From Scatophagus argus (lineage: Eukaryota > Chordata > Actinopteri > Scatophagidae), in NCBI RefSeq assembly GCF_020382885.2, contig NC_058499.1, forward strand, positions 2,316,001-2,380,000: a stretch of DNA of 64,000 nt, in the 5' to 3' direction. The position numbers were made by a program, and so were the translations under genes. Shown here in pieces: positions 5,601-27,600 of this stretch; within the stretch, counting starts at the first letter, position 1, and every line of letters starts with the position of its first letter. The notes below the pieces were generated by a model that did not search any database, was not told where the DNA came from, and saw nothing but the letters and a program-made list of their open reading frames with translations.

Positions 5601-7749
5601 TGGAACCCGTCAAAGCCACAAGGTCCACACCGCTAAAGAGAGCTGAGGCCACGCCCCTCCAGATGACACCCGCCAAGAGAGTTTCGGAGAGGACCCCCTC
5701 GATCCCTGCGCCCGCCTCAGCTCGGCAGCAAAGCGGATTGAAGACTAAATCCAAACCCGAGGCCCTGGTCCCACCAACACCCAGCGGAGGAGTCAGGGGA
5801 CCCCCCCACGGAGGCGGCAAGTTTTACATCAGCTTGTTTCCACATTTATTCAGGAAAAACTGTTTGCCGATCAGAACTGAACTGAGCGGTTATTGAATTT
5901 ATATAAATTTAAATAATAAATATTGAATATTTATTTATTATTTAAATCTTTTGGTTTAAGCTGAAGTAAGTCTTCACTTTCTGTGATTGATTGTCTGCTA
6001 CACCTGCTATTTGTTTCTCACTCTGTCTGTCTGTCTGTCTGTCTGTCTGATCTCCAGACGTCTCAAAGACGTTGAAGCCAAAGAGGTTGACGTCAGTGAG
6101 CAGTGTGGACAGGTAGACACACACTCCACCTTCACAGTAAACATGTAGTCAGCATAACACACACGTATGGAAAAACCTCCCTTTGGACCTTACTGTTGAT
6201 AGGCTCTTATTTTAGACATTCAACCAACTGGAAAGTGAGAATACACTTTTATTTTATTTTCAATTAACATATTTTATGTATTTCACAGACACTGACTTGA
6301 AACAAAATGCAACTGATTATCTGCTCTGTTTTATCTCTCGGCCCATCACTGGTGATAACTTCACATACTGGGTTTTATTTCTAATATATGTAAGAGTCGT
6401 CCGGCTAAAACCACACCTGGAACACCTGTCCTGTTGCTCTGTGCTGTCTTGGATCTGAATTTGGTTCCGTCCTCTCCTGCAGTCTCCCTCAGAAACCTTC
6501 TGCTGCTCCTCTGACTCCCTCTGCTGGCAGCTGCAGGTCTCTGCAGGTGAAGGCTCGGCGTCCCTCTGCACTCCCCACCCCAGTGAGGCGCAGAATGTCC
6601 GCCATACCTGTCGCCACGCCCACCAACCAGACCCGGAGCACAAGGCCGCCACCTGCCTCTGACTCTGACCCCGCCCCCCTCCCCACCTCAGACAGGAGAG
6701 AGAGAAGGTGAAATGCTTTAACGATTTAGGGTGTTGCCCTGCTGCATCCGATCACCCATCTGTTACCATGACAACACCTGCAGAGGTCTGATTTTGTAAT
6801 TTATTGTGGTGTTGTTTTTTTTCTAGCCCCACCCCCTCAGGCACGCTGGAGGTGGAGCCTGATATCCAGCCCTTCTGCCTGGAGGTGGAGGGGTCTCCTG
6901 CTGCCCCACCCAGCACCCCTCCACAGCCTGACCAATCAGAGGTCATGGATCCTGGAGCGCCAAGTCAGGGCAAATCAGAGCCCAGCAGGAACCTGATGGA
7001 ACTGGAGGCTGCAGAGGAGAGCAACAACAAGACACAGGAGGTCACACACATCTGCTCATGATGTTTGCAACCCGACAAACAGATTCATTAAAACAGTTTT
7101 GCAAATTAATGTCCTGCAGATCAGCAAACCATAAAGGCTGGACTTTACGGTTTTCTGAGTTTTTGGCCTTATTGGAAGGACTGACGAACTTTCAGGTGTT
7201 CAGTTCAGTTTGTAAGATGTTTGGTGATGAACCTTCAACCAAAATCCTGAATCCAACAAGTTTGTTGCCCCATTAGAGTCTCGTTGGTCCTCATGTAAAG
7301 CCTTTACTGGTCCGACTCCTGGGCATGACGGTGTCCCTTTTGTCTCTTCATTGTAAATAAACTTTATGGAACAGATAGGGTGAACTGAGTCTGAACTGAA
7401 TGTTCTTCACTCTGACGTTCTCTCTGTTCTTTCTTCAGGTTCTCCTGCTGGATCTGCCAGCTCCAGCTCTGCAGCCTCAAGAGAAACTCCTCATCGACTT
7501 GACCAACACCCCCGACCTGATCCGGACCGGCAACAAGACCTGCACTACAACTCAGGTAGGTGACATGTGGTTACATCCACGACCTCAAAGGAGTGGATTT
7601 GTGTTTGTCGCAGAACATCTCTGCAGGGGATCTTTTACAAAAACCCTTTTTGGTTTCAGCAGCTGATTGACCTGAGCTCGCCGCTCATCAAGTGGAGTCC
7701 AGAAGACAAGAGGGAGAACAACGCTCCCCTCATCAACCTGTCCTTCTGA
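2690..7749 (+). CDS. gtse1: G2 and S phase-expressed protein 1 (GTSE1), 11 coding exons, 704 aa
   Basis: GTSE1 is a mitotic microtubule- and clathrin-associated protein that tracks plus ends through EB1 and restrains p53. Coding exons: 2690-2711, 2812-2869, 3184-3835, 4701-4862, 5022-5157, 5433-5816, 6058-6112, 6483-6707, 6827-7040, 7439-7555, 7660-7749. All phases agree. The N-terminus (DEKFDFDVSLSP, then an acidic DEDEDEVFMGP stretch) matches the family's N-terminal domain. The middle is Ser/Pro/Arg-rich and basic, with SxIP-type EB1-binding motifs SALP (518-521) and RRRMSAIP (SAIP 529-532). The C-terminus carries clathrin-box-like motifs: LLLDL (638-642), LLIDL (653-657), LIDL (677-680) and LINL (699-702). 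Length is close to the human protein (roughly 720-740 aa). A noncoding first exon probably ends near 2383 (donor gag|gtttgt), joining an acceptor at 2638. Intron 6 needs a GC donor. A (CTGT)n tract forms the pyrimidine stretch before exon 7. Confidence 0.93.
4325..4625 (+). repeat. degenerate teleost interspersed repeat in gtse1 intron 3
   Basis: The order of landmarks (GGAAATAC, then CTCTTATGTC, GTATGGTAAATA, a TTAGCAC stretch, and later a GAGTTATGTG segment) matches a repeat I recognise from many fish genomes. A second divergent copy lies at 61155-61500. The identification is from memory and the boundaries are approximate. Confidence 0.45.
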
Positions 7750-7919: not shown

Positions 7920-7925
7920 AATAAA
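7920..7925 (+). terminator. gtse1 polyadenylation signal
   Basis: A canonical AATAAA lies about 170 bases after the gtse1 stop codon, giving a short 3' UTR. It is the first such hexamer after the stop. Confidence 0.8.
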
Positions 7926-8123
7926 TGTTGTTAATGTCAGTCCTGTACACGTGTCTTCGTGCGCTGCTGGCCTCAGTCCACCAACACGTGAACCCGACCG
8001 AACGTCTCTGAGCTCATTCCAGACCAGACTGAAAAGAAAGAAAAGTAAAATATTAGAGTGAATTTTTTTTTATGAATGGTAAAAAACAGATTGAAAGTCA
8101 AACGCTGACTGCAGCCAAAGTCC

Positions 8124-9296
8124 ACACAAAGCTGCCGATTGTGCAATAATGGAAGAAAAATCGGAGAAACAAGGCGTGTTTTTCCAATGAAATGCAACCT
8201 CATCGTTTCAGTTGTACCAGAGAGGCGAGTTCATGTTTCTTCATTGTTGGTTTCTTTATGGAACAGATTAAACAGCATTTGTAGTATTCACAAGATTCAT
8301 TTTAAAATGTCAAAATCGCACCAGCGGAGGTCAAATTTGTGCAGGCTGCATATGAACGAGCAGATGTATATAAACTAATGAATAAGTAACCATAAATATA
8401 TCACACAAATGAGCTTTTGATCGAGGCAGACTAATTATCTTCGGTCACTAATTTCCTTCTGTTTGCTGCCTTTGCCGTTTCACTGAGCACATCAGAGGTC
8501 TGACTGACATTCGGCCCACAGTTGTACAGTCTGATGTGCTTCATCACTTCCTTCTGCTCTGGATCTGCAGATTTCTGCTGTCTTACACTCCACATCTGCT
8601 GGAGAAGCGACCACCCTGTCGGACAGACGGCCTATCAGAATCGTAGCACATCATCCATCATTTCGGTTATCAGGTCTCAGTTTGAGTTTGTGCTGGAAGT
8701 CCACCAAACAAGAATTCATTCCCAATCAGAGGTCATGGATCCTGGAGCGCCAAGTCAGGGCAAGTCAGAGCCCAGCAGAAACCTGGTGGAACTGGAGGCT
8801 ACAGAGGAGAGCAACAACAAGACACCGCATGCTCTGGTGTTCTGTGGAAAGGATTTCAATATCCCAGCTGCCATGACTGAGAAACTTTCTTATCAGTTAC
8901 GTTTCTGTATTCCAGAATCAGGGAGCACCAGCAGCACCACCACACTATGGATGTCTTTCAGACCCCTGAACTCAACACTATTTGAAAAGCTCATTTGTGT
9001 GATATATTTATGGTTACTTATTTGTTAGTTTACATACGTCTGCTTGTTCGTGTGCAGCCTGTACAAAGTTGACCTCCGCTGGTGCGATTTTGACATTTTA
9101 AAATGAATCTTGTGAATACTACAAATGCTGTTTTCTGTTCCATAAAGAAACCAACAATGAAGAAACATGAACTCGCCTCTCTGGCACAACTGAAAATATG
9201 AGGTTGCATTTCATTGGAAAAACACGCCTTCTTCCTCTATTTTTTTCTTCCGTTGTTTTGCAATAATGCTTTATCTCCAATAGGAAGCTTTGTGTC
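8124..9296. mobile_element. foldback (long inverted-repeat) element carrying a captured gtse1 fragment
   Basis: The left arm (about 8124-8418) reads as the reverse complement of the right arm (about 8985-9296) over nearly 300 bases. By eye about nine bases in ten match, with small indels. Landmarks shared in inverted orientation include GGCGTGTTTTTCCAATGAAA, CACCAGCGGAGGTCAA and ACACAAATGAGCTTTT. The spacer (8419-8984) is non-repetitive and contains a near copy of part of gtse1 exon 9. I see no transposase, so this would be a non-autonomous foldback or MITE-like element. No clear target-site duplication was found, and the outer ends become ragged beyond about 8124 and 9296. A single-locus inverted duplication is the alternative. 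Confidence 0.75.
8722..8825 (+). pseudogene. captured fragment of gtse1 exon 9
   Basis: These 104 bases match gtse1 6932-7035 with four substitutions (two silent, one Met to Val, one Ala to Thr) and no indel. Only exon-internal sequence is copied and neither splice site is included. The local frame stays open within a 168-codon frame (8522-9028) made of unrelated element sequence, but nothing suggests this is translated. Strand and frame are the same as in the parent gene. Confidence 0.9.
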
Positions 9297-9362
9297 AGTA
9301 TTTCCTGTTGAGTTGCTGCATCACTGACGAATAAACGTTAATAACGTGTCAAAGTCTGTGCC

Positions 9363-13151: not shown

Positions 13152-16100
13152 ATGGTTTTCTTCAGGCTCAGTGTCCTCGTCCTGCTGCTGGTCTCCGACT
13201 GCTCCTGGGCTGACGACCAGGTGTGGAAGTTATACATAAAGATAAGTCAGGATGAAAGATTTCTTATTGGAGGAAAGAATTTAGTCGTCCTGTTTTTTGC
13301 TTTGTGACATCAAGATGATTCTGTCCCTTTAGTCTCTTGGTTGATATACATGCCCATATGCTATCATTATATTAATACATGCATGTCATTATCTGCTGTT
13401 TCTAAGTATTAATTAGCCTTTATTACTTGCTGATTACTGTGAGGTCAGAATATACAGTGATGTAAAACAGTGGAGAACATGTTATCATACTTTGAAGCAG
13501 ATTACGGGACAATTTAAGCAGAACAAAGAATATACAGCAGACTGTGCACACCAGCTTGCATAAATGCTAAGAGTGATGTCATGTCCCTGATCCAGGATCT
13601 GCCTGTGTCTGAGCTCCTGTGGAGGGCCAACAAAGATGTTGGTAAGACACCCAGCGTTTTGTATAACACCGACAGTGTAATTAATAAACAGCACTTTAAA
13701 ATTCATCTGTAGTCCCTGCACAGATTTATTAAAGTCTTCGCCATAAAGGAAGCTTGAAATGACAAGTTACTGTATGTTGTTTCAGTTTAATTCCCACATT
13801 AAGCTGCTGCTAACTTTAGCTAACAGCACCAGCAGTGATGGTAGAAATCCCTGCGAGATGTCGTCGCAGTGGTAGTAGTAGTAGATTCCAGTAGATTTCT
13901 GCAGGATGTCAATCCTAATCTGTTATAACTTTTAGCGCTCGAGAAGAGTATTAAATGTAAGCTACTGGAAGTTAAAGTATTGAAATGTGCTGTGGATGAT
14001 GTAAATATAATGCATGCATTCCGTACCACATTTCCGAGGGCTGCTGCCAGTTGATTAGCTGCTTTGTGCTTTATTAGTAAGCAAAATTGCTCCATTTAGC
14101 ATCCCTTTTAGGGATAAGCTACGCTAAAGCTAATGTTGTTAGCTTCTGCGGCGTTGTCTTAAAAGCTAAATTGACCCATCAGGGTTTTGTATGACCAGCA
14201 TGGGTGGTTTCCATTGCAATCCAATCAGAGAGAGGAACATGACTGATGTGGATCAGATGGAAAACAGATGAAATGCTAAATCTTATACTGATACATTTGG
14301 CCTTTAATGTCCTCCTTCCCGCAGTGCGCAGAGCGGACGAGCCGTTGGTCATTGATGACATTGCTTATGACAGCGAGAATGAGAGAAACGCTGACCCCTG
14401 CACCTCCTACAGCTGCATGTGGAGCAAATCGGCTGATGGAAGGGTCTACGTGCCCTACGTCATCGCCTCACATTACAGTAAGTACGTCAAATGGATGTCA
14501 TCAAAACAGGTTGACCAAAAGATCGGCTGCAATCTGGAGCCCAGTTTATAAACCCTGTATGTTTTGAAGGTCCCGTGTGTAGGATTTAGGAGGATTTGGG
14601 ATCGAGCCATAGGGTGTTTGTCCTTGTGCAAAACTGGGTTGTAGTATACAGTCGCCAGAAACTAATGTTGTTGTTTTCATTACCTTACATTTAAGCTTGT
14701 ACATCTACAGAGCGTGCAGGTCATCTTCCATAGAGTCGGCCATGTCGCAGCGCCATGTTTCTACAGGAGCCCAGAACAGACAAAACAAACACTGGCCTCC
14801 GAGAGCGACGGCCTTTCAGGTTTTAGCAGGCCCTGCAGGGGAGGGTGACACAAAGGGCACTAAACCCTCAGATGACTGACGAAACGTTGAACACTTTCAT
14901 CTTCATTGCTGTTCCTCAACTGTAGTCACGAGTTTGTTATTGCAGCCGTGATGATGAAGGTCCCCTCACTTAAATGAAGAAGGAATTTTCTTTCCCTGTC
15001 CGTGACGTTTTCCCAACCTTAACTAAGTAAAAGGATCTTGTTTTTGTGCCTAACCTTAAGCGTAGCGTCGTCGTCGTCCTCTTGAGGGTTTGTTGCCTGC
15101 AGGTGGATGTACGTGTTGTACACGTGTGTGTTGTCTTACCTGTACGTGTCTTCCCAGCTTCTCGTGAGCGCTCCATCATCGAGCGCGGCCTGCAGTCCTT
15201 CCATGACGTCTCCTGCATTCGCTTCACCCAGCGCACCGGCCAGAGGGACTACCTGTACATCCAGTCCGACAGCGGGTAACAGTTTACTGTGGGCAGGCTG
15301 CACGCAGCTCACCAACTCAAACCTCCAATTGAACTCTATGTGCTTTCCGTGAAAAATGTTGCTCAGCATGTATTTATGGCCGTCCCGTTAGCATATGTCT
15401 TATGTTCCATGGGTTTGAATAATTTCTACTGAATGTGAAGCTGTTATGAAATCAGAATTTGTTAAAATAAACTAAAATTAAAAAATAATTTTGTCATTCA
15501 ATACAATACATGCAAGTCACAGCTGTTTTCATCTTCAGAAGGTAAACCCTACATAAGTTCAAGTCTTTTCTTCAAATATTTCTTTAACATTTGAAATCGT
15601 GTCACTTCCACAGTCCCCGTAAATCTTAGAAATGAGTTATGATCTGTCCCTGCCTGCTTCAATTATTGATGTCTTTTATGTCATCGCTTCAATGCAGCTG
15701 TTACTCATACGTGGGCCGCCGTGGTAATTCCCAGACGTTGTCTCTGGACCGTCAGGGCTGCATCTACCACAACACCGTCCAGCACGAGCTGCTCCACGCC
15801 CTCGGCTTCAACCACGAACAGTGCCGCTCCGACAGGGACCAGTACATCCGGGTCCTGTGGGAGAACATCCAGTCTGGTCTGACCTGCACACACACACACA
15901 CACAGCATTTTAAATGATCAAACTAATCTGAGCTGCAGCTAACTATTATTTTATCTATTGGTTAATCTGCCAGTTCTTTTCTCAATTAACTAAATACTTG
16001 TTATGTGTTCCTGAAAACAGAAGTTAATGTAAATCACACAAAAACCGACAAAGTTAAAAACCTGTTGTTGCTTCAGAAATCTAAATTTTCAGCAAAATTA

Positions 16101-17141
16101 TCATTTATGAAAAACCTTGAGCAACTTTATCTGCTTTAAACTGTCCACCTGACCAGAAGAGATTAATGCACTAATCACAACAATCCTTATGCAAAACTTA
16201 CTTGCAAAGATCAAATGTTCTAAACAGACACACTAAAAGACGGTTTAACACATTTTCTTGTTTCTTTGCTGACTCTATGGGACTTTTTTCTGCTCAGGTT
16301 TGGCGTACGCCTTCGACAAGTTGAACACTCTGAACCTGAACACCCCCTACGACTACAACTCTGTCATGCAGTACCACAGGTCAATAATGCTACCATTCAT
16401 TTAGCAGCTTTTTGATTTAGCTAAACTCATTGACTGCATATAAAGATGGATGACATGAGAGCTCCCTAAAAGTGAACCCAGAACATCTGGATCGCCTCCT
16501 GGTGGCCAACTGCAGTACAGGACTGGTGATTGGGTCAGATGGACATGTGGGCGGGAACTCGATACTGTGGCTCCACCTCCCAATCGCCACTGGACAGACT
16601 CTGGTTCTAAATGACATCACCAGAACAAGATGGCAGGCCCCTCGTATCCAGGATATTTTGGCTTAACTTTACAGCGTACATTGGGAGGAATCTCACAGTA
16701 TTATAACCATTTCAGCCACGGAGCTGAATGAGCTAACACTCAGCAACGCTGTGGCTGCTGGCGGATTTGAGCTTCCCAATATTTTCTACCCCACCCCGAT
16801 TCTGCTTGATAAAAATAAATATGAATTAGATCAGATGATTTACGCCCCAATAATGTAAGTTCACAGATGTCCAAAGTAAGGACTATATAACAGTGATATA
16901 GTATCCATGTCAGGTGGTCATCTACACATAGGAAAAACTAGCTTACAATGCTTCAAACAGTACAAGTTTCTCTGATAAATATTTCAGCCTCTGTACTCTG
17001 TATGATTGCAGGTATGCCTTCTCCAAGAACGGTTTGCCCACAATGGAGCCTATCCCCAACCCCAATGTCGAATTCGGCACGGGCACCCAGATGAGCAGGA
17101 ATGACATCCTGAGACTGAATACTCTGTACAAATGTCACTAG
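13152..17141 (+). CDS. astacin A: secreted six-cysteine astacin metalloprotease, 7 exons, 258 aa
   Basis: This is a zinc endopeptidase of the astacin (M12A) family, resembling fish hatching enzymes (low choriolytic type) and nephrosin. Exons: 13152-13220, 13596-13641, 14325-14477, 15158-15275, 15698-15876, 16298-16379, 17012-17141. Residues 1-20 form a signal peptide. The propeptide carries IDDIAYD (48-54), in the place of the family's FxGD aspartate switch. The mature enzyme probably begins near Asn60 and has the extra N-terminal pair C64-x4-C69 of six-cysteine astacins. The zinc site is HELLHALGFNHE (H158, E159, H162, H168). The Met-turn is SVMQY (210-214), with Gln where His is usual and the zinc-ligand Tyr214 kept. 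No CUB or EGF domain follows, so it is a minimal protease. A seventh Cys (C171) follows the zinc motif. It is intact and looks functional. Hatching enzyme versus nephrosin-like paralogue cannot be settled by eye. Confidence 0.92.
14568..14870 (+). repeat. teleost interspersed repeat in astacin A intron 3
   Basis: The sequence starts AAGGTCCCGTGTGTAGGATT and later contains GGCCATGTCGCAGCGCCATG, TTTCTACAGGAGCCCAGAAC and AAACACTGGC. I recognise this order from a common fish non-autonomous repeat. The assignment is from memory and the boundaries are approximate. Confidence 0.5.
16430..16640 (+). repeat. teleost interspersed repeat in astacin A intron 6
   Basis: Landmarks are TTGACTGCATATAAAGATGG, GACATGAGAGCTCCCTAAAA, and ATCTGGATCGCCTCCTGGTG followed by GCCAACTGCAGTA. 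This matches a repeat frequent in fish genomes. A shorter copy in the opposite orientation lies at about 20930-21015 in astacin B. Confidence 0.5.
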
Positions 17142-17182
17142 CTTTAAAACACTGATGATGTTTTCTAAGCCTTTAATGTGAC

Positions 17183-17188
17183 AATAAA
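17183..17188 (+). terminator. astacin A polyadenylation signal
   Basis: AATAAA occurs 42 bases after the stop codon, giving a very short 3' UTR. Confidence 0.8.
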
Positions 17189-17289
17189 CCTTCGAACACA
17201 GAAGAAGCCTTGTCTGTTACTGTGCAGACACTTTTGTACCAAATGTTCCTCAACTGAAGTTCGTATAATGAAGGTCTAAATGCATTCAA

Positions 17290-17505
17290 CCTTAAGGAGT
17301 TTCCTCCGTAGGGTGTCTGGACTCAGTCTTAGAGACAGGATGAGGAGCTCAGAGTGGAGTCGCTAAAGGAGCCATCTGAGGTGGTTTTAGCATCCAGATA
17401 TGCCCAAGTAGGTGGAGACCCCTGGCGTAAACCCAGACCTCACTGGGGGGATTAGAGATCTGGCCTGTGAACAACCAAGGATCCCCCTGGAGGGATCCTT
17501 GGTTG
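17290..17505 (+). mobile_element. degenerate non-LTR retrotransposon fragment
   Basis: The stretch (GGGTGTCTGGACTCAGTCTT, AGAGACAGGATGAGGAGCTC, GAGCCATCTGAGGTGGTT, CCCCTGGCGTAAACCCAGAC, GGGGGATTAGAGATCTGGCC) resembles the 3' coding end of a fish LINE, frame-broken by substitutions and gaps. Conceptual pieces such as LSLRDRMRSSEW support this. It lies about 100 bases past the astacin A poly(A) signal and ends in a perfect 12-bp hairpin (17473-17504). Confidence 0.55.
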
Positions 17506-18660
17506 CAAACAAAAGCGTAAGCTGTGTGTTGTGATTGGTTAATATCTAACAAATTAAACAGGTTGAGTTTGAACCTTCACAGGGAGCCACACAAAATGTG
17601 ATAAATCACTTGAGTCAGTGTCAACCGTGACTCATGTAGGACAAAGTATTAGAACAGTTAATAGCTTCCTGTGTTTTCTTATTACAAACATGGAATGATA
17701 CTTAGAATCTGAGCCACATTGTTAAAATTAAGTCAATTAATGCAGATCAGTTTGTGGTTTGTTGTTTTTTTTCATGTAGCACCTCTACAAGTTTAATGCA
17801 CTCTCTCCGTTCGTCCACCTCTAACACGGACATCAGCCAATCACAAGTCAAGACTTTGGGGCTGCTGCAGCTGGGTTGGCCACTCATACGCTGTGTTTAT
17901 CTCTCTCCTGGAGACACCTGTCAGGTTCCTAAGCCAGGAACACACCACAAGATATAAAATGAAACATTGAGCTAGTTGGGTCTGGTCAGACTGAGTCAGA
18001 TGGCCTTGGCCAGCTGGAATCTGGACAAATCTGAATATGAGCCCACGCTCTGAGCTGCTTATCAACCGACGAGTGTTTACACAGTGTTGTCTGTTGGCTC
18101 TCAGCTTTAGTCTTTTTCATTGTAAGCTTAAACGTTCTTTGTCCATGAACGTCTTCAGTACAACCAGTTTCGTCCCCGTGAAAAACAAGCATCAGTAATT
18201 ACATTCCTAAAAAGATTATTCTAAATTGGACATTTAGCTTATTGAGTACTTTTACGAACTTGTGTGTGACAATGAAGTGAATCCATTCAAAAGTCAGAAA
18301 ACCAGATGACAAAATACAGCATGAGAAAAGTAAAGGAACAGCAAAGTGTACAAGAGAAAGAAATGATGTTCAGAAAGAAGAATTTTTTCCGGTGCAGTAG
18401 ATTATAAGTAGATTGATAAAGATTAAATGATACTGTGCTACTTATACAGTTTCAGTGAATCAGTTTTCCTTTATTTATTTATCCCCGAGGGGAAATTCTT
18501 TACTGAAATGATGACAGGAAACATTTGAGGCCAGGAATCTGGTCCAACTCAAACAGGATGAAAAAGGCTCTTGTTGTGGGATAAGGCAATGTGGCATCAA
18601 GGTGAAATATTCTTATCCAACGCTCACTTCTGTTTCCACTCCGTTTTCCCCCTCACCGTC
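17506..18660. other. intergenic DNA between astacin A and astacin B
   Basis: No gene is supported. A short TTTATTTATCCCCGAGGGGA segment (18471-18492) resembles a recurrent fish repeat end. An 18-bp block at 18592-18609 recurs upstream of the astacin pseudogene. Confidence 0.5.
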
Positions 18661-18671
18661 CAAAATATCCT

Positions 18672-18677
18672 TATAAG
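18672..18677 (+). promoter_or_regulatory. TATA box and probable 5' UTR exon of astacin B
   Basis: TATAAG at 18672 would start a 5' UTR exon near 18700. A good donor (ggca|gtaagt) begins at 18757 and an acceptor (gctgcag) ends at 18878, just before the coding start at 18891. Astacin C has the same arrangement of TATA box, short noncoding exon and small intron. Confidence 0.45.
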
Positions 18678-18890
18678 GATTTTATTCCGGTGCAGCCGAT
18701 GCTTTAAAATGTGATGCAGCGGCGATCACTGCATTTCTATCGCCTCAGGGGTGGCAGTAAGTATCATTCATACATCTTCACCCAAACTGTTTTAAACGCT
18801 CTTCTCAGGTTTCTGACGACAGGAAAACGAAGCCACTGATTAGATGGTTGGATGTTCTGCTGGTTTTCTTGCTGCAGGTTATTTGTTGAC

Positions 18891-21806
18891 ATGGAAGTAA
18901 AGTGCATTCTGGGACTTGTGGTCCTGCTGGCTGTGTCAGCTTGGGCTGAGGAGGAGGTGAGTTTTACTCCAAATATACAACATATGCACCGTTTCTTCTC
19001 TTACAAACATTTACTCAAGTGCTGTACTTTATTTTAGTCATTCCACTTTCCTGCTACTTCATACTTGCTTACTTGAAGAAAAGTAAAGAGAAGTAAAGTA
19101 AAGAGTGTTTTTACACTGTAGTATTGCTACTTTTACTTAAGTGAGTGATCCAGCTCTGGTCCAGCACTGATTAGAAGTATATAATAATAATAATAATAAA
19201 GATTTCTTAGTTTAATTTGTTTTCCTTCCTCCTTTTTGTCTTCATATGTAACATCTGGAAATCCCCCGATCCTGTAAGTTTGCTGTCTTTTATGTTTCAA
19301 ACACAATCCTGAGTGGTGTCAGCTGAAAATAACATGCACCATATGATATTAATGCTAAAAACATTGAACATCTCAACTGATTTCCTGTAGGTCGTTAAGC
19401 CTCTGCCAGCTTCAGTGCGGATTGAGAGAGTCAACAGGGATATCGGTAAGGATTTTTATAAAGTTTAGCTCAGGTTTTAACCAAAAAGGAGCTGTTTTTT
19501 ATTTGAAATATGTGAATGTGTTTTTCATGTTTAATTTGTTCGGATACTAAAATCTAAAAATGTTTGAGCCCAATCTATGAAATGTCCACCCTGTGTTTTT
19601 GTAGTCAGGAGATCACATTCTTAATCCTCAGATTCAGTCAAATCTTATTGACTGAATGACTCAGTAAAATGTTTTCCCCCCGTGTGCTGCAGTCCGTTCT
19701 CCTCTCGAGCCCTACGTAGAGGACGACATCGCCTACGACTTTCAGGATCAGAGAAACGCTGACCCCTGCACGTCCTCTAACTGCAAGTGGCCCAAGTCCT
19801 CCGACGGGAAGGTCTACGTCCCCTACATCCTCTCCAGCGCGTTCTGTGAGTTTCTCATACTGTCACTCTTAAAGGTCCAATCTGAGATTAAACCAGGAAG
19901 TGGAAGTGAATCCACAGACAGCAACTGTTTGTGTGTTTCCCAGCAGCACATTGAAAATGAAGGCTCATTTATGAACGTCAGTTGTAAGCAAATCTCTAAG
20001 AATACACAACAGCAATAAAACAATAAAACATAGATTTATTCTGTCATTGACTTTGCAGTCCCAGATATCATGCTGTCTTTGGCGCATCTTCATTCCTCAG
20101 ATGTTTGAGCTGCAGTCAAGCCGTTTTAACCCTCTTAAATTAACTTGCAAACACCTGGTTGTCCATTTGAGGCACTTAATTCAATGAATAAAACTAACAC
20201 ATAAAGCTATAAAAGACAGAGAAAAGACATCAACACTTTCATCCTTAGCCTTTCTTCCTGTATGTATAGCAATCAATTTTCATCCGCCATCTTGGTTAGT
20301 GAAGACTCACGAACCAGTGCAGAGAGGAAAAGTTTGGCCACACTAACAACAGGAAAAGATACAAACAAATGGACATGATGGCGGCTTTTGTGAAGCTTCT
20401 CGACAGCAGCTGTCCAGCTGTGTGTCAAAACAAATGACAGCAGAATCCAAAGCGCCCACTGACACTGTGTAAAAGAATCATACGTATTGTCATTATAAAA
20501 TGTCTTTTAGATTTTGTACATTTGGTCTCACAGGATCATGTTGGTCCGTCATCGAGCGCGGCCTGCAGTCCTTCCACAGTGTCTCTTGCATCCGCTTTGT
20601 GAGACGAACCAACCAGAGAGACTACCTGAACATCCAGTCCCTTAACGGGTCAGCGTGTATTCCAGGACGTGCAGAAAACACTCTGCATGTCATCCTGATT
20701 TGTTGTGGATTGCTTGTAGCAACCAAGCCAGAATATCCAGGATACAAGCAGCACTCAGCTGTCAGTCATGACGTTTCACCTGCTTGTTATCGCATCAAAT
20801 AGCTAATTAAAACTGAACAGAAAATTGAACACTTGAACAAACACCAGCGTGATAAGAGCTAGCTAAAATGACAAAAACCACCTTTGGGAAACATTTATTT
20901 GACTTGTACTTTGAGTTTTTATTTTGGCTCATATCCCATCTGCTAACATGAATGGGAGGATTTTATGAGCTGTACTGCAACCAGCCACCAGAGGGCGATA
21001 CAGATGAAACGACATAATCAACCATGCTGTCCTGAATTGTCACAGGTGCTACTCCTACATTGGTCGCCGTGGCAACGGGCAGGCCTTGTCCCTGCAGCGC
21101 TCGGGCTGTGTTTACCACGACACCGTCCAGCACGAGGTGCTCCACGCTCTGGGCTTCCACCACGAGCAGAAACGCTCTGACCGCGACCAGTACATCCGTG
21201 TGCTGCTGGAGAACGTCACCTCTGGTTTGTGATTTAATAATTTAATCACTCATTTGAAATGCTTTAATTTTGTGTACGAGGGGTGATTGATAAGTCAGTG
21301 GCCTAAGGATGGCAGCATCAGAATTAAACTGGAAATTTGCTTGTGATTAAAATACTATGTTTTGATCGTGTTTTGCTGCTCCCTAGCGATGATAATGTGA
21401 GCCCCACGTTCCACTTAGCTCATACGTGAATAATGAAAGCTGTTCTGTTTTCACCTCTTTAGGAATGGAGCACAACTTTGACAAAGTCAACACTCTGAAC
21501 CAGGGAACCTCCTACGACTACGGCTCCGTCATGCACTACTCCAAGTAGGCCACACACTGTGATGGAGAACATTTCAAAAGCAAGCAAGAAATTTGATCCA
21601 GGAAGTCCAGTTTCGGTCACAGATTTAGATATTCAAAGAGCATCAGCTCTCACTCATTGTTTTTTTCTTGTGCTTTCAGGTATGCTTTCTCGAAGAACAA
21701 CCAGCCCACCATGGTGGCCATCCCCAACTCCAGTGTCCAGTTTGGTACGGCCACCGAGATGAGCCAGAAGGACATCCTGAGGCTGAACAAGCTGTACCAG
21801 TGCTGA
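18891..21806 (+). CDS. astacin B: six-cysteine astacin metalloprotease, 7 exons, with a junction stop codon (possible pseudogene)
   Basis: Exons: 18891-18956, 19391-19445, 19693-19845, 20534-20648, 21046-21224, 21463-21544, 21680-21806. The layout and exon sizes match astacin A almost exactly (153, 179 and 82 nt shared; exon 4 one codon shorter). It has a signal peptide ending near SAWA, propeptide VEDDIAYD, the N-terminal pair PCTSSNC, zinc site HEVLHALGFHHE (159-170), Met-turn SVMHY and C-terminal LYQC. It lacks the extra cysteine of A and C (HEQKRSD here). The problem is exon 3 ending ...TTC T and exon 4 beginning GA TCA, which creates TGA at codon 92. No alternative donor or acceptor keeps the frame. 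All other exons and splice sites are intact, so this is a recent lesion, an allele or assembly error, or an unseen splice form. Confidence 0.8.
19011..19165 (+). repeat. teleost interspersed repeat in astacin B intron 1
   Basis: The sequence runs TTTACTCAAGTGCTGTACTT to CTACTTTTACTTAAGTGAGT. It belongs to a fish repeat with CTCAAGTACTGTACTT and ACTTTTACTTAAGTA landmarks. Related pieces lie at 25165-25310 (opposite strand) and 32955-33065. Confidence 0.55.
20930..21015 (-). repeat. partial copy of the astacin A intron 6 repeat, opposite orientation
   Basis: TGTACTGCAACCAGCCACCA followed by GAGGGCGATACAGATG is the reverse complement, with changes, of the ATCTGGATCGCC...TGGTGGCC...CTGCAGTA part of the 16430-16640 repeat. 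Confidence 0.45.
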
Positions 21807-22056
21807 ACAGGTGAACGCGTCCTTTCTTCACTTTCTCGTTGTCTTCATGTTGATCTGTGTGGTTTTTTCCATTGGTGCAGCAGCCAAATGAAAGATTAAT
21901 CTTCCTGCTTTTGACTCCTCTATGCAAATACGCTCATTAGATTAAGTAAATATGTGTATAAGTCAAACTTTGTTTATCCTTCTCTTATTAAACAGGTGTC
22001 AATGAGACGCCGCAGCACTTCAGAAAGAGAGTCCTCATCATCTTCTCTGTGTCAAC

Positions 22057-22062
22057 AATAAA
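22057..22062 (+). terminator. astacin B polyadenylation signal
   Basis: AATAAA lies 250 bases after the stop. A possible 3' UTR intron (donor cag|gtgaac near 21811, acceptor ending about 21996) may precede it. Confidence 0.6.
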
Positions 22063-23440
22063 TTCAAAATGATTTAATGAGCATCAATAAAAGTGGCATA
22101 AAGCTCATTTCAGTTTCACTCTTTTACTTGTGTATTTGCTTGGCGTCCCCACCAAAAGCAATCGATCACTTATCAGTACAACAGAGCAGGGGATCATGAC
22201 TCGTAGTCTTCAAAACAGCTTATCGTACAAACTAATGAACTAATCATTAAAATGTGTAAAATAAAGCTAAAATATATATATATATATATGTAGCTGAGAC
22301 TCAAAACTACACATCCTGAAGGAAGTTAATATGAATCTGATGCCAGTAAAAAAAAAATGATACGAAGTGATGATGATACTAATGATGTGGATAAAACATA
22401 TCAATAAAATATCAATATTATGTTGTTCTACAGTTTAAGTTCCTGTCCACATGTTAATAATCCCGCAGATCACGTCCTTTAGATTACACAGGACACAATG
22501 CAAACTGTGATATATGAAATAGAAGACAGATTAAGTGGAATATAATTTGAAATCAAAGAAAATTAAGTATGTTTAAAAATAACTTACAATTTCTTTTAAA
22601 AATATGTTAAATAATTGCTAATCCAGTGAATATGATTGTGGATTGCTTGAACCCTTTCGACACGTATTACATGTCTACATGCCAAATCTACTTGGTTGTC
22701 CATCATTTTATTCTTTGCGTGTAAATGGGATCATTTACTTTTCAGATTGTTTATAATTATGAATATGATTGTAAAAGAAAACCCCACAATATGTTCCAAA
22801 CTCTTTTGGGAAACAACATCACGGGAACGAGCATCTGGCATCAAGGTGAAATAATCAGTAATCAGCTTCGACAGCTTTATTGACATTTCCAATCATTTTT
22901 CTCCCCAAAGTTTGGAACCCAACACAAACCTGAAAGAGGAATCCAAACACTTCTGGTGGCCCATTTGTTGTTTTGTTTTGTTTTTGTAGTTTACCATTCA
23001 GAAACCTTTGTGAACACACCATTTTTTTATTTCAATGATAAAAACAACCTCAGGAAAAGTTTTAACCCCATAATCTTCACGTTGTTGTTCAGTACGATAA
23101 AGACGGTTACAAAACCCAGAGCCTCCATGTTCCAGCTGTGGTGGAACAGCTGACTGTGTCAACAAAAACAGTCTGCCGATAGAGCAGAGCGAGTTATTCT
23201 CACGGCACGGCTCAGTAACGAGCACATTTCATTTGCTCTAGCTGGTTTACAGCTCAAAGAAAGCTTTTAATGTGGCCGGCAGCAGGAGTCAGTAGATCAA
23301 GGCTGAAGTGTGAGGCCACAGAGAGTCGCACACACACACCTCGTGTGGTGGCGGAGGTTGGCTTTGGCCGTGGACGCAGTGGAAATACATGTGATCAAGG
23401 CTGGGCGCAGCTTAAAGCTGTGGAAACAGATCTATAGCCA
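22063..23440. other. intergenic DNA between astacin B and the astacin pseudogene
   Basis: AT-rich, with an (AT)n run at about 22272-22289 and no supported gene. An 18-base block at 22836-22853 is identical to 18592-18609 upstream of astacin B, which suggests a leftover promoter-proximal segment of the decayed paralogue. Confidence 0.5.
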
Positions 23441-23466
23441 CACTTAACTTGTTTGCTCTCCTCGCA

Positions 23467-23800
23467 GGCTGGGACCAACACTCTGAACTTGGCTACGCCC
23501 TCCGACTACGACTCTGCCACGCACCACAGCGAGTAAGTACAGAGACGCCATGCACAGTTTGTCTTCTTGACTTCTTCTCCTGCACACACACCACCACGTT
23601 TTTATACACCGTTTATCACCGGATGGTCTCAGCGAAGTGTCCTCCTGAGGGCTTTACAGAACCAACACTGCATTACACTGGAGTTATCGATGTGTTCCAC
23701 AGCATTCCAGCTATTGAGGCTCTGAGTCTGGCCCACGTTTAAATACAGGTGTGTCTTCTCCAACAACAACCAGCCCAGCATTACTGGCAGTCGGCCTCCA
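23467..23800 (+). pseudogene. astacin pseudogene relic (exons 6 and 7 only)
   Basis: Sequence 23467-23533 reads TNTLNLATPSDYDSATHHSE, matching the Met-turn exon of astacins A and B (TLNLNTPYDYNSVMQY). It ends at an intact phase-2 donor (agcga|gtaagt). The Met-turn SVMHY has become SATHH, losing the methionine and the tyrosine ligand. The next exon relic begins after ttaaatacag at 23749 and reads CVFSNNNQPSITGS, against YAFSKNNQPTMVAI in astacin B. Homology then fades into a CCTCCAGGTCGTCCTCCA-type repeat. No trace of exons 1-5 or the zinc motif was found, so the gene is dead. Confidence 0.85.
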
Positions 23801-23862
23801 GGTCGTCCTCCATGTTGTCCTCCAGGTCGTCCTCCAGGGCAGCTCCCTCTCTCTTGTTGTTC
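23785..23862. repeat. short imperfect tandem repeat
   Basis: GGTCGTCCTCCA / TGTTGTCCTCCA units are repeated three to four times directly after the pseudogene exon 7 relic. Confidence 0.6.
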
Positions 23863-24191
23863 CCCTGACCTTCCTCCAGCTCAGCTCTATCTGCCAGAGT
23901 CCAGACCTTCACCTTCCAGACCTGCTCCAACCATCGGTCCTGCCCCCAGGCTGTCCACTGAGGACATTTTTGGTTTTGTTTTTGAAGGGACATCTAAGAG
24001 CCATAGGTTAAATGAGTGCTTTATTTATTATGCTGAAGGTTTCACTCTCATGTCATATTCTGTCCTCCACTTCCTGTCACTGATAAGTTTCACCTGTCCC
24101 TGATTAGCCTCCTGTGTATTCAGTCCATGTGTTTTCCCTCCTTTGAGTGTATCAGTGTTGGCGTCCCTGTTGCAAAGACAACAGGACCAGC

Positions 24192-24480
24192 GAGGTAGGA
24201 CGAAAGTGTGAGTTTATTCATTCATTTAGTCTGTGATGGAGACCTGAAGGCAGAGTGAAATGGTGCCAGCCTGACTGGATCATCAGTCAGCCTCCATTTT
24301 CACTGGAGTTTTGGTACCCAGTGGCAAACAGAATGAAGTCAAAGTGAGGTTCATAGGGAGCCGGTCTAAACCCTGATGGTGTTTTTGTTTTATAGCCGTC
24401 CTATTGTGCAGTCAGCATTCACTTCATAATGAACACGTTAAAGTAAAAAGCGTCTACCGTCAGTTTAAAGGCATCTTTGA
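24192..24480. repeat. direct repeat copy 1 (3' flank of astacin C)
   Basis: This block aligns with 25347-25605 in the same orientation. Shared landmarks include GTGAGTTTATTCATTCATTT, TGAAATGGTGCCAG, CAGTGGCAAACAGAA against CAGTAGCAAACAGAA, and TTTAAAGG. The first part contains the likely poly(A) signal of astacin C, so this copy is probably its 3' UTR. Confidence 0.75.
24211..24216 (-). terminator. astacin C polyadenylation signal
   Basis: TTTATT on the plus strand is AATAAA on the minus strand, 408 bases past the stop codon. I noticed no closer hexamer. Confidence 0.5.
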
Positions 24481-24623
24481 AGGAGTAAGTGATCATCTGC
24501 GTAGCTCTTTTAAATGATTCATCGCAGTGTGGTGGCATCTTGTTGAACCCGCCGTGATAACAGATTTCTCCTACATACGTTCACAATATCGAATGAGTAC
24601 CGGTCAAAGAAGCTGAGGGAGGA

Positions 24624-27600
24624 CTAGTTTGTGCAGTACAGCAGGTTGATGCGGTCGATGTCGCTCTGGCTCATCTGCCTGGCCAAGCCGAACTTGATGT
24701 TGGGGTCTGGGACAGCCTCCATGGTGGGGCTGTGGCTGTCCTTGGAGAAAGCCAGTCTTCAAAACAAAGGATGACCAGAGTCAGTTATTTTAAATTGGAT
24801 TTTTTCCTGTTCAGGGAGTGATGTTATATACAGTACAGATGTTTAACAGTTCATCAGTTGATCCTCTTGATCTGCGGAAAATAGTCCCTGACAAATATAC
24901 TGACTCTGGAAAATAAACCAGGCTCTGTCGCCTATGAATCACAAAACAAGAATAAAGTTTACTTAGGCAACAAAATAATGTGTAGCATGAAATTATGGAT
25001 CACACAGTGTTGACAATTAAAGTGCTAACTGGAAAGAGAATTTTAAACAGATTAACTGGATTTCGCAGTCGAACTGACCTGCCGTAGTGCATTACAGAGC
25101 CATAGTCATATGGAGTCTCCTGGTTCAGAGTGCTGACCTTTCTGAAGTTGAATTCCTGACCTGCAGTGGTGGAAGAGTTACAAAGGTGTGATACCTGAGT
25201 AAAGGTAGCAGTGACACTGTGTAAAAATACTAATCACAAGTAGGAGTCCTGCATTTGTGACTAAACTTTGTGAGTTTTTGTGCATCAAAATGTACTTAAA
25301 GCGGAAAGAGACAAAGACGACCTGATCGCAGTGCGGCTGCTGCGAGCAACACAGGACAAAAATGTGAGTTTATTCATTCATTTAGTCCATGACTGAGGCA
25401 TGAAAGCAGACTGAAATGGTGCCAGGATCTCGATCACCAGTTAGCCTTCATTTCCTTCAAGATTTCAGACCCAGTAGCAAACAGAACTGCATAGTGAAAG
25501 GTTCAACTAAACCACCAATGTTGGAATGTATTTTATTTTATAAGTTGATCGTAAGGGGTTTTGTCAGAATCTCTAATGTAACTGCAGCTGCCATTTTAAA
25601 GGTATTCCTCACTCAATGTTTTAAAGAAGAAGTCGGCGACTGAAAGTCAGTGAATGAAGCAGCACAATGAGGACTGTGGTCGTCTTTATCACGGCTGATC
25701 ACAAGTCACAAATGCTGTTCACTGCACTGACGATTAGTGTAAAAACAGTCCCGACGTCCCGGCTGCAGCCTACCTTTGATGACGTTCTGCAGCTGGACCC
25801 GGATGTGCTGGTCCCTGTCGGAGCGGCAGTGCTCATGGTTGAATCCCAGGGCGTGGAGCAGCTCGTGCTGGACCATCCCATAGTGAACGCACCCCTGCCG
25901 ACTCAGAGAGACCGTCTGAAGGTTTCCCCGGCGGCCCACGTAGGAATAGCATCTGCACAGATGTTGGATTGGACAGTTCCTCAACAGGACACTTTTAAAC
26001 ACAACTGCTTCTTTACAGCATGTCGTTCCGGATACGACTGCCACTCACTGACGTGAATGAATGAATATGAATTGTATACGTTATTTGTATTATATTACAT
26101 CAACAGAACAGGCGTACCCATCCAGAGACTGGATGTAGAGGAAGTCCGTCTGGTTGGTGCGGGGGAAGAAGCGGATGCAGGTGGAGTAGGAGAAGGAGTT
26201 GAGGCCTCTTTTGATGACATCCAACTCCTGAGAAGCTGGAGGGGAAAACACAGAGATGGAAACCACACTTACACAGTACAGTACAGTACAATCCACACAA
26301 TGCAGTATCTTCCAGTTGTTTTCACATTTCCATCACATCTCCATCAAAAGTGAAGTACATTCCCAGACAGTGCAAGTAGAAGACTTCAGCAGGGAAACTG
26401 GCTGCTTTGCTTGTACCTTCCGCGTCTTTGTATAACAACAGCAGACAGCGAGGTGGGTGGGACTTTCACCCAGGTGGAGGACGGTCTAGTAGCTGAAGGA
26501 GGTGCTGTGTCAGAGGACCTGACCTGGACCACCAACACCTCCAGTCTTGTGAAGAAGGCTCACCAGTGCCTCTTTTTCCTGAGGACACTGAAGAAACACC
26601 ATCTGTCTTCAGCCATCCTGGTGAACTTTTACCGCTGTGCAATTGAAAGTATCCTGACCAGCTGTGTCACAGTATGGTATGGGAACTGCTCGGTTGCAGA
26701 CCACAAGGCGCTACAGCGAGTGGTGAAAACCGCCCAGCGCATCACAGGGACTCCACTTCCAGCCCTTGAAGACACCCAGAGGAAACGCTGTCTGCGTCGA
26801 GCTCGCAGCATCCTCAAGGACTCCTCCCACCCTGCTCGTGGTCTGTTTGCACTCTTGCCGCCTGGCAGGCGCTTCAGGAGCCTCAAGGCCAGGACCAGCA
26901 GGCTGAGCAACAGCTTCTTCCCCAGGGCTGTCTCCTGACTGAACTCAGCCCCCCACTAACACCCTCACCCTACACCACACTCCACTACTCCACCCCATCC
27001 TAACTGAGTACTACGTACTGAGTGTTGCACTAGTTCCTCCACCTCACTGTTAATATAGTTAGCCTACTGCCTATCGCTGTACACTCCATATTGTCCACTG
27101 CACTAGTGATTTATAGTTAATTTAACATCTGTAAATATCATTTGTAAATTGTGTTATAGTTTCCGCCTACACTGGATGCACATTTAAGCACATATCCATC
27201 TGTATAGTATGTTCATAGTACTTAGAAACCCTGTATATTATGACAACTACCTGTATATCATGTTTATAGTATATCTGTAGCATAGACACCTGTACATACC
27301 CTGTACATACTGTAAATGATTGTATACCTGGCACTTACTGCTTATTGCACTTCTGGTTAGATGCCAAACTGTGTTTCATTGCATTGTACTTGTACATGTG
27401 TAATGACAATACAGTTGAATCTAATCTAATCTAATCTAATATGGATAAATTACTTATGTAAAGGCGGAACCACTAAGGAGGCGTTTCAGCCAGAGGATAA
27501 CTGTGGACTTTGGACTTTTGTAGGAAGTTGAGCCTTTAGAGTTACTGCAACAGTTTACAAGGGAACACATGGATGTACTCACTGTAGTGCTTAGCGATGG

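Follow-up and report, generated by a model that had tools for sequence, protein, structure and literature searches.

Downstream of gtse1 in Scatophagus argus, two long inverted arms enclose a loop that contains a piece of a gtse1 coding exon. Is this locus a mobile element that picked up a gene fragment, or was it put together in place from neighboring DNA? The initial annotation took the former view and described a mobile foldback element of the Pack type. We analyzed the locus within its 64-kb window (C7:2316001-2380000, the whole stretch of DNA considered here, whose numbering is used throughout) and searched the window's own assembly, which comprises 570,666,677 bases (570.7 Mb) in 48 contigs.

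Inverted arms and the gtse1 exon copy

The left arm (8124-8418, + strand) and the right arm (8985-9295, − strand) are mutual inverted copies with 92% identity over 275 aligned columns in a gapped BLASTN alignment, and they are separated by a loop of 566 bp. A repeat search found a longer ungapped inverted block at 8270-8418/8985-9133 (149 nt, 94%), a second one at 8156-8267/9134-9245 (112 nt, 93%), and an outer block of 23 nt (78%). Both methods thus agree with the initial description of two ~300-bp inverted arms around a 566-bp loop; of the interval given there, 8124 to 9296, the left end stands, while the outer end of the right arm is placed at 9295. The arms remain homologous as far as ACACAAAGCT (8124 and 9295); the outermost ~40 bp match less well and contain indels, which in the outer part amount to about 17 bp. 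Besides the indels, 19 aligned bases distinguish the arms, which makes an assembly palindrome artefact unlikely. Their longest shared identical run, 65 nt, is not unusual (permutation P 0.08). The inner-arm substitutions are clustered, with 9 of 15 inside 46 bp (8335-8380 and 9023-9068; P 0.0064). Eight of the nine clustered substitutions are transitions, seven of which leave the + strand with a G-U pair; when the 13 transitions of the whole arms are counted, the preference for + strand wobble (10 versus 3) is not significant (P 0.09).

Within the loop, positions 8722-8825 (+ strand) are a 104-bp templated copy of 6932-7035 on the same strand, identical at 100 of 104 positions; the copy was recovered by the repeat search, BLASTN, and the genome search, with a genome-wide E value of 4e-41, far beyond chance. 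By eye, all four differences are A/G transitions, two of them synonymous and two residue-changing (M to V, A to T). The parent gene is gtse1, as indicated by a Pfam GTSE1_N match in an upstream exon (E 1e-34), and the reading frame together with GT/AG signals places the parental exon at ~6827-7040, with the copied segment in its interior. Copy and source are 1.7 kb apart. The gtse1 stop codon ends at 7749, leaving 972 bp between stop and copy. The 104-bp exon-interior copy with four substitutions, ~970 bp past the parent stop codon, had been correctly recognized in the initial annotation, as had its lack of introns. As the copy was taken from within a single exon, however, the absence of introns cannot separate DNA copying from RNA copying.

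The K2P distance between the arms is 0.062 in their inner part (15 of 255 sites) and rises to 0.069 when all 292 aligned sites are counted; between the copy and its gtse1 parent it is 0.040 (4 of 104 sites). The parent coding exon is probably under constraint; if it is, the divergences of arms and copy fit a similar age or a single episode, and they are also compatible with two events.

Genome-wide copy number and signs of transposition

The left arm, used as a query against the whole genome, had two matches, both of them the arms of the gtse1-adjacent locus. The parts of the loop to the left (8419-8721) and right (8826-8984) of the gtse1 piece are single-copy DNA, each matching only itself, and the gtse1 piece had two genome-wide matches, the copy and the parent. 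The search scores the best candidates only, passing over very common words, and it returned no identity lower than 92%, so that diverged copies could be missed. As a positive control we used the segment at 26354-26935, which by eye we take to be a LINE-like reverse-transcriptase tail. It gave 336 first-look candidates, and the 40 of these that were scored had 92 to 98% identity, apart from the tail itself; this tail is a member of a large and similar family. In the window, a sequence model built from both arms found nothing further at E values up to 10, and BLASTN found no copies of arms or loop besides the gtse1 parent. An exact 28-base arm pattern had no match in viral and prokaryote contigs, nor did BLAST of 8100-9310 against phages yield one, both as expected for fish DNA. 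A weak match between the arms and a gtse1 intron (7341-7376) reached a score that was also attained by 21 of 400 shuffles, and an intronic origin of the arms was rejected.

Like Pack-type elements, the locus has an internal region bounded by inverted terminal repeats and a host-gene fragment between them. Dispersed copies of the terminal repeats, a further mark of such elements, were not found: only the two arms were recovered in 570.7 Mb, at a sensitivity at which diverged copies could be missed. The initial annotation had proposed separate genome searches of arms and loop and had named confinement of the arms to this locus as an argument for a local rearrangement; at search sensitivity, confined to the locus is what they are. 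It had also suggested looking in relatives for target-site duplications. At the locus itself, no exact direct match of at least 2 bp abuts the arm ends in register (8050-8174 versus 9230-9344); the scan considered exact matches, so that a duplication that has acquired several mismatches would escape it. The best direct match near the arm ends, TGCAATAATG at 8142-8151 and 9259-9268, is out of register and has both its copies within the arm alignment, and on these grounds it was rejected as a target-site duplication. Exact direct 9-mers near the arm ends, likewise out of register, numbered 2 versus a mean of 0.3 in random paired regions, an excess that we put down to this single match. With left arm and loop restricted to a single locus in the genome search and with no target-site duplication detected, the proposal of a mobile Pack-type foldback element did not hold up.

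The junctions were inspected for microhomology and inverted repeats. If the right arm is taken as 8985-9292 and removed, TTTG (4 bp) is present at both flanks (8981-8984 and 9289-9292); this end lies three bases short of the end of similarity, and with 9296 the match is 0 or 1 bp. The joint left by removal of the right arm is straddled by a 9-bp inverted repeat, whose halves are AACTCAACA at 8969-8977 and TGTTGAGTT at 9306-9314. Among 2,919 joints drawn at random from the window, 20 had a straddling inverted repeat of at least 9 bp, as did 28 of 2,000 contiguous sites. Three distinct joints were examined (in four versions), which brings the corrected P to about 0.02; the other two joints had chance-like inverted repeats of 4 and 5 bp. 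At the gtse1 patch each junction showed a 1-bp match, and at the left-arm joint there was none. TTTG and the 9-bp inverted repeat weakly hint that the right arm is the inserted inverted copy and the left arm possibly the original.

Transcription, coding potential, and neighboring repeats

Downstream of the gtse1 stop codon, the nearest poly(A) signal is AATAAA at 7920, about 200 bp before the start of the locus; later signals are found inside and beyond it (ATTAAA at 8267 and AATAAA at 9330). Because the AATAAA at 7920 precedes the arms, the hairpin probably lies outside the main gtse1 mRNA, while a longer transcript is conceivable. If transcribed, a 1,201-nt RNA from the locus is predicted to fold into a nearly continuous stem, with an MFE of −619.9 kcal/mol (computed without a shuffle control). 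For silencing of gtse1 by small RNA, the stem itself would offer no antisense source, since the gtse1 copy occupies the loop in sense orientation. Judging from the sequence, we propose no function for the locus.

A 174-amino-acid open frame (8504-9025) spans the loop in the gtse1 reading frame. It has no Pfam match at E values up to 1, and the open run of the loop (160 codons) was equally long in 5% of simulated loops; for these reasons a coding loop was rejected. A Pfam scan of 20 of the 46 listed stop-to-stop frames gave nothing past the cut-off (best E value, 0.01), PDB searches with two frames gave no match, and an Rfam search of the whole window gave no match at the gathering score. Elsewhere in the window, 14338-25957 contains diverged direct and inverted repeats of 73 to 187 nt with 71 to 86% identity. 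A frame at 25709-26044 (− strand) contains HELLHALGFNHEH, which looks to us like an astacin-type protease. Together these features suggest local gene duplicates in both orientations.

Origin of the locus

Both duplications and their orientation are observed, and at the sensitivity of the search the assembly contains no further match to arms or loop. We consider it likely that the locus is not a mobile element but a complex local rearrangement that arose by template switching, either in replication or in the repair of a break. All duplicated pieces derive from nearby, within 2.4 kb. Given this proximity, the lack of a detected family, and the lack of a clean target-site duplication, local copying is the simplest account; the shared strand and the 1.7-kb spacing of parent and copy are as expected of in-place copying. 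An inverted copy of a ~300-bp segment downstream of gtse1 would have been placed ~566 bp from the original, and the present loop would have received a 104-bp patch whose template was the gtse1 exon ~1.7 kb upstream, with polymerase template switching (MMBIR or gap filling) as the presumed maker of both duplications. The joint weakly suggests that, at a small hairpin, synthesis from a fork or break jumped to an inverted template, the left arm, and copied it. Patch and inverted copy may have arisen in one episode or in two, the new hairpin in the latter case having provoked the break that was patched.

The anatomy of the locus is covered by MMBIR (Hastings et al. 2009, PMC2621351) together with template-switch hairpins (Monttinen and Loytynoja 2022, PMC8794818), as these are described in the two sources. 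MMBIR is reported to yield inverted duplications with junction microhomology of 2 to 5 bp, and the gtse1 locus resembles it in combining an inverted duplication with a nearby templated insertion and in the possible short microhomology at one junction. Unlike in that description, where most switches span tens to hundreds of kilobases, everything here lies within 2.4 kb, and the gtse1-patch junctions are nearly blunt. Like the template-switch hairpins, the locus has a reverse-complement copy adjoining its source to form a hairpin, whereas the stems of RNA genes described in PMC8794818 are far shorter than these ~300-bp arms with their 566-bp loop. The patch is also similar to class 2 templated sequence insertion polymorphisms, in which DNA from elsewhere is copied into a break (PMC5110952); in contrast to those described there, its source is 1.7 kb away and the patch lies inside an inverted repeat.

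Tan et al. (2021, PMC8277862) surveyed 100 animal genomes and reported 370 Pack-TIRs, spread over 55 of these genomes, with 8 Pack-TIRs in zebrafish. The remark of the initial annotation that gene capture has been reported far less often for vertebrates than for plants is fair, but such capture is documented in animals. Of the 281 unique Pack-TIRs in that report, 160 were no more than 15 kb from their parent, most of them less than 5 kb away, and single-copy Pack-TIRs were attributed to transposition-independent gap filling. The gtse1 locus works like these in that its gene piece would have been copied in cis by gap filling, and it shares with them a gene piece between inverted repeats, proximity to the parent, and a single copy; it departs from the Pack-TIRs placed there in recognized TIR transposon families in that its arms have no detected family. 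We have not filed it as a Pack-TIR, since neither dispersed copies of the arms nor a target-site duplication was found at the sensitivity of the searches.

A related reading, in which the locus is the last surviving or strongly diverged member of a long-TIR DNA transposon family whose internal gap was filled from nearby gtse1, fits the geometry, the cis bias and gap filling attributed to single-copy Pack-TIRs in PMC8277862, and the surplus of direct 8- and 9-mers around the ends of the arms. We nevertheless regard it as improbable: the left arm is confined to the locus, while the control repeat gave hundreds of candidates, and no clean target-site duplication was seen, one degraded by several mutations being liable to escape the scan. 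Moreover, the arms are least alike at their outer ends, whereas transposon ends are expected to be conserved. The multicopy mobile foldback element of the initial annotation, which would have transduplicated the gtse1 piece, shares the geometry of inverted repeats enclosing a gene fragment, but it was rejected and has next to nothing left of its probability, contradicted as it is by the genome searches at their sensitivity, in which left arm and loop had no other match, and by the sequence model of the arms, which had none in the window. That two unrelated accidents occurred, the inverted duplication coming first and a break being patched later with RNA- or DNA-derived gtse1 sequence, would agree with the greater divergence of the arms (0.062) than of the copy (0.040) and with the class 2 templated insertions known in people (PMC5110952). 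Constraint on the parent exon alone could explain the lower divergence of the copy, and the patch has no poly(A) tail (by eye) and 1-bp matches at its ends; we hold this reading to be very unlikely.

Local template switching may be extended by a more speculative proposal, to which we give a low, though not negligible, probability: that the new inverted repeat was a fragile hairpin and that its repair in place patched the loop with a neighboring gtse1 exon piece, providing a transposon-free route to Pack-like structures. If this were true, the locus would be a nascent long-hairpin locus adjoining its gene donor. As it stands, the gtse1 locus is a small, clean example of a gene-capturing foldback look-alike at a single locus that is better explained by local template switching, and it warns that geometry alone is insufficient for calling Pack-type elements.
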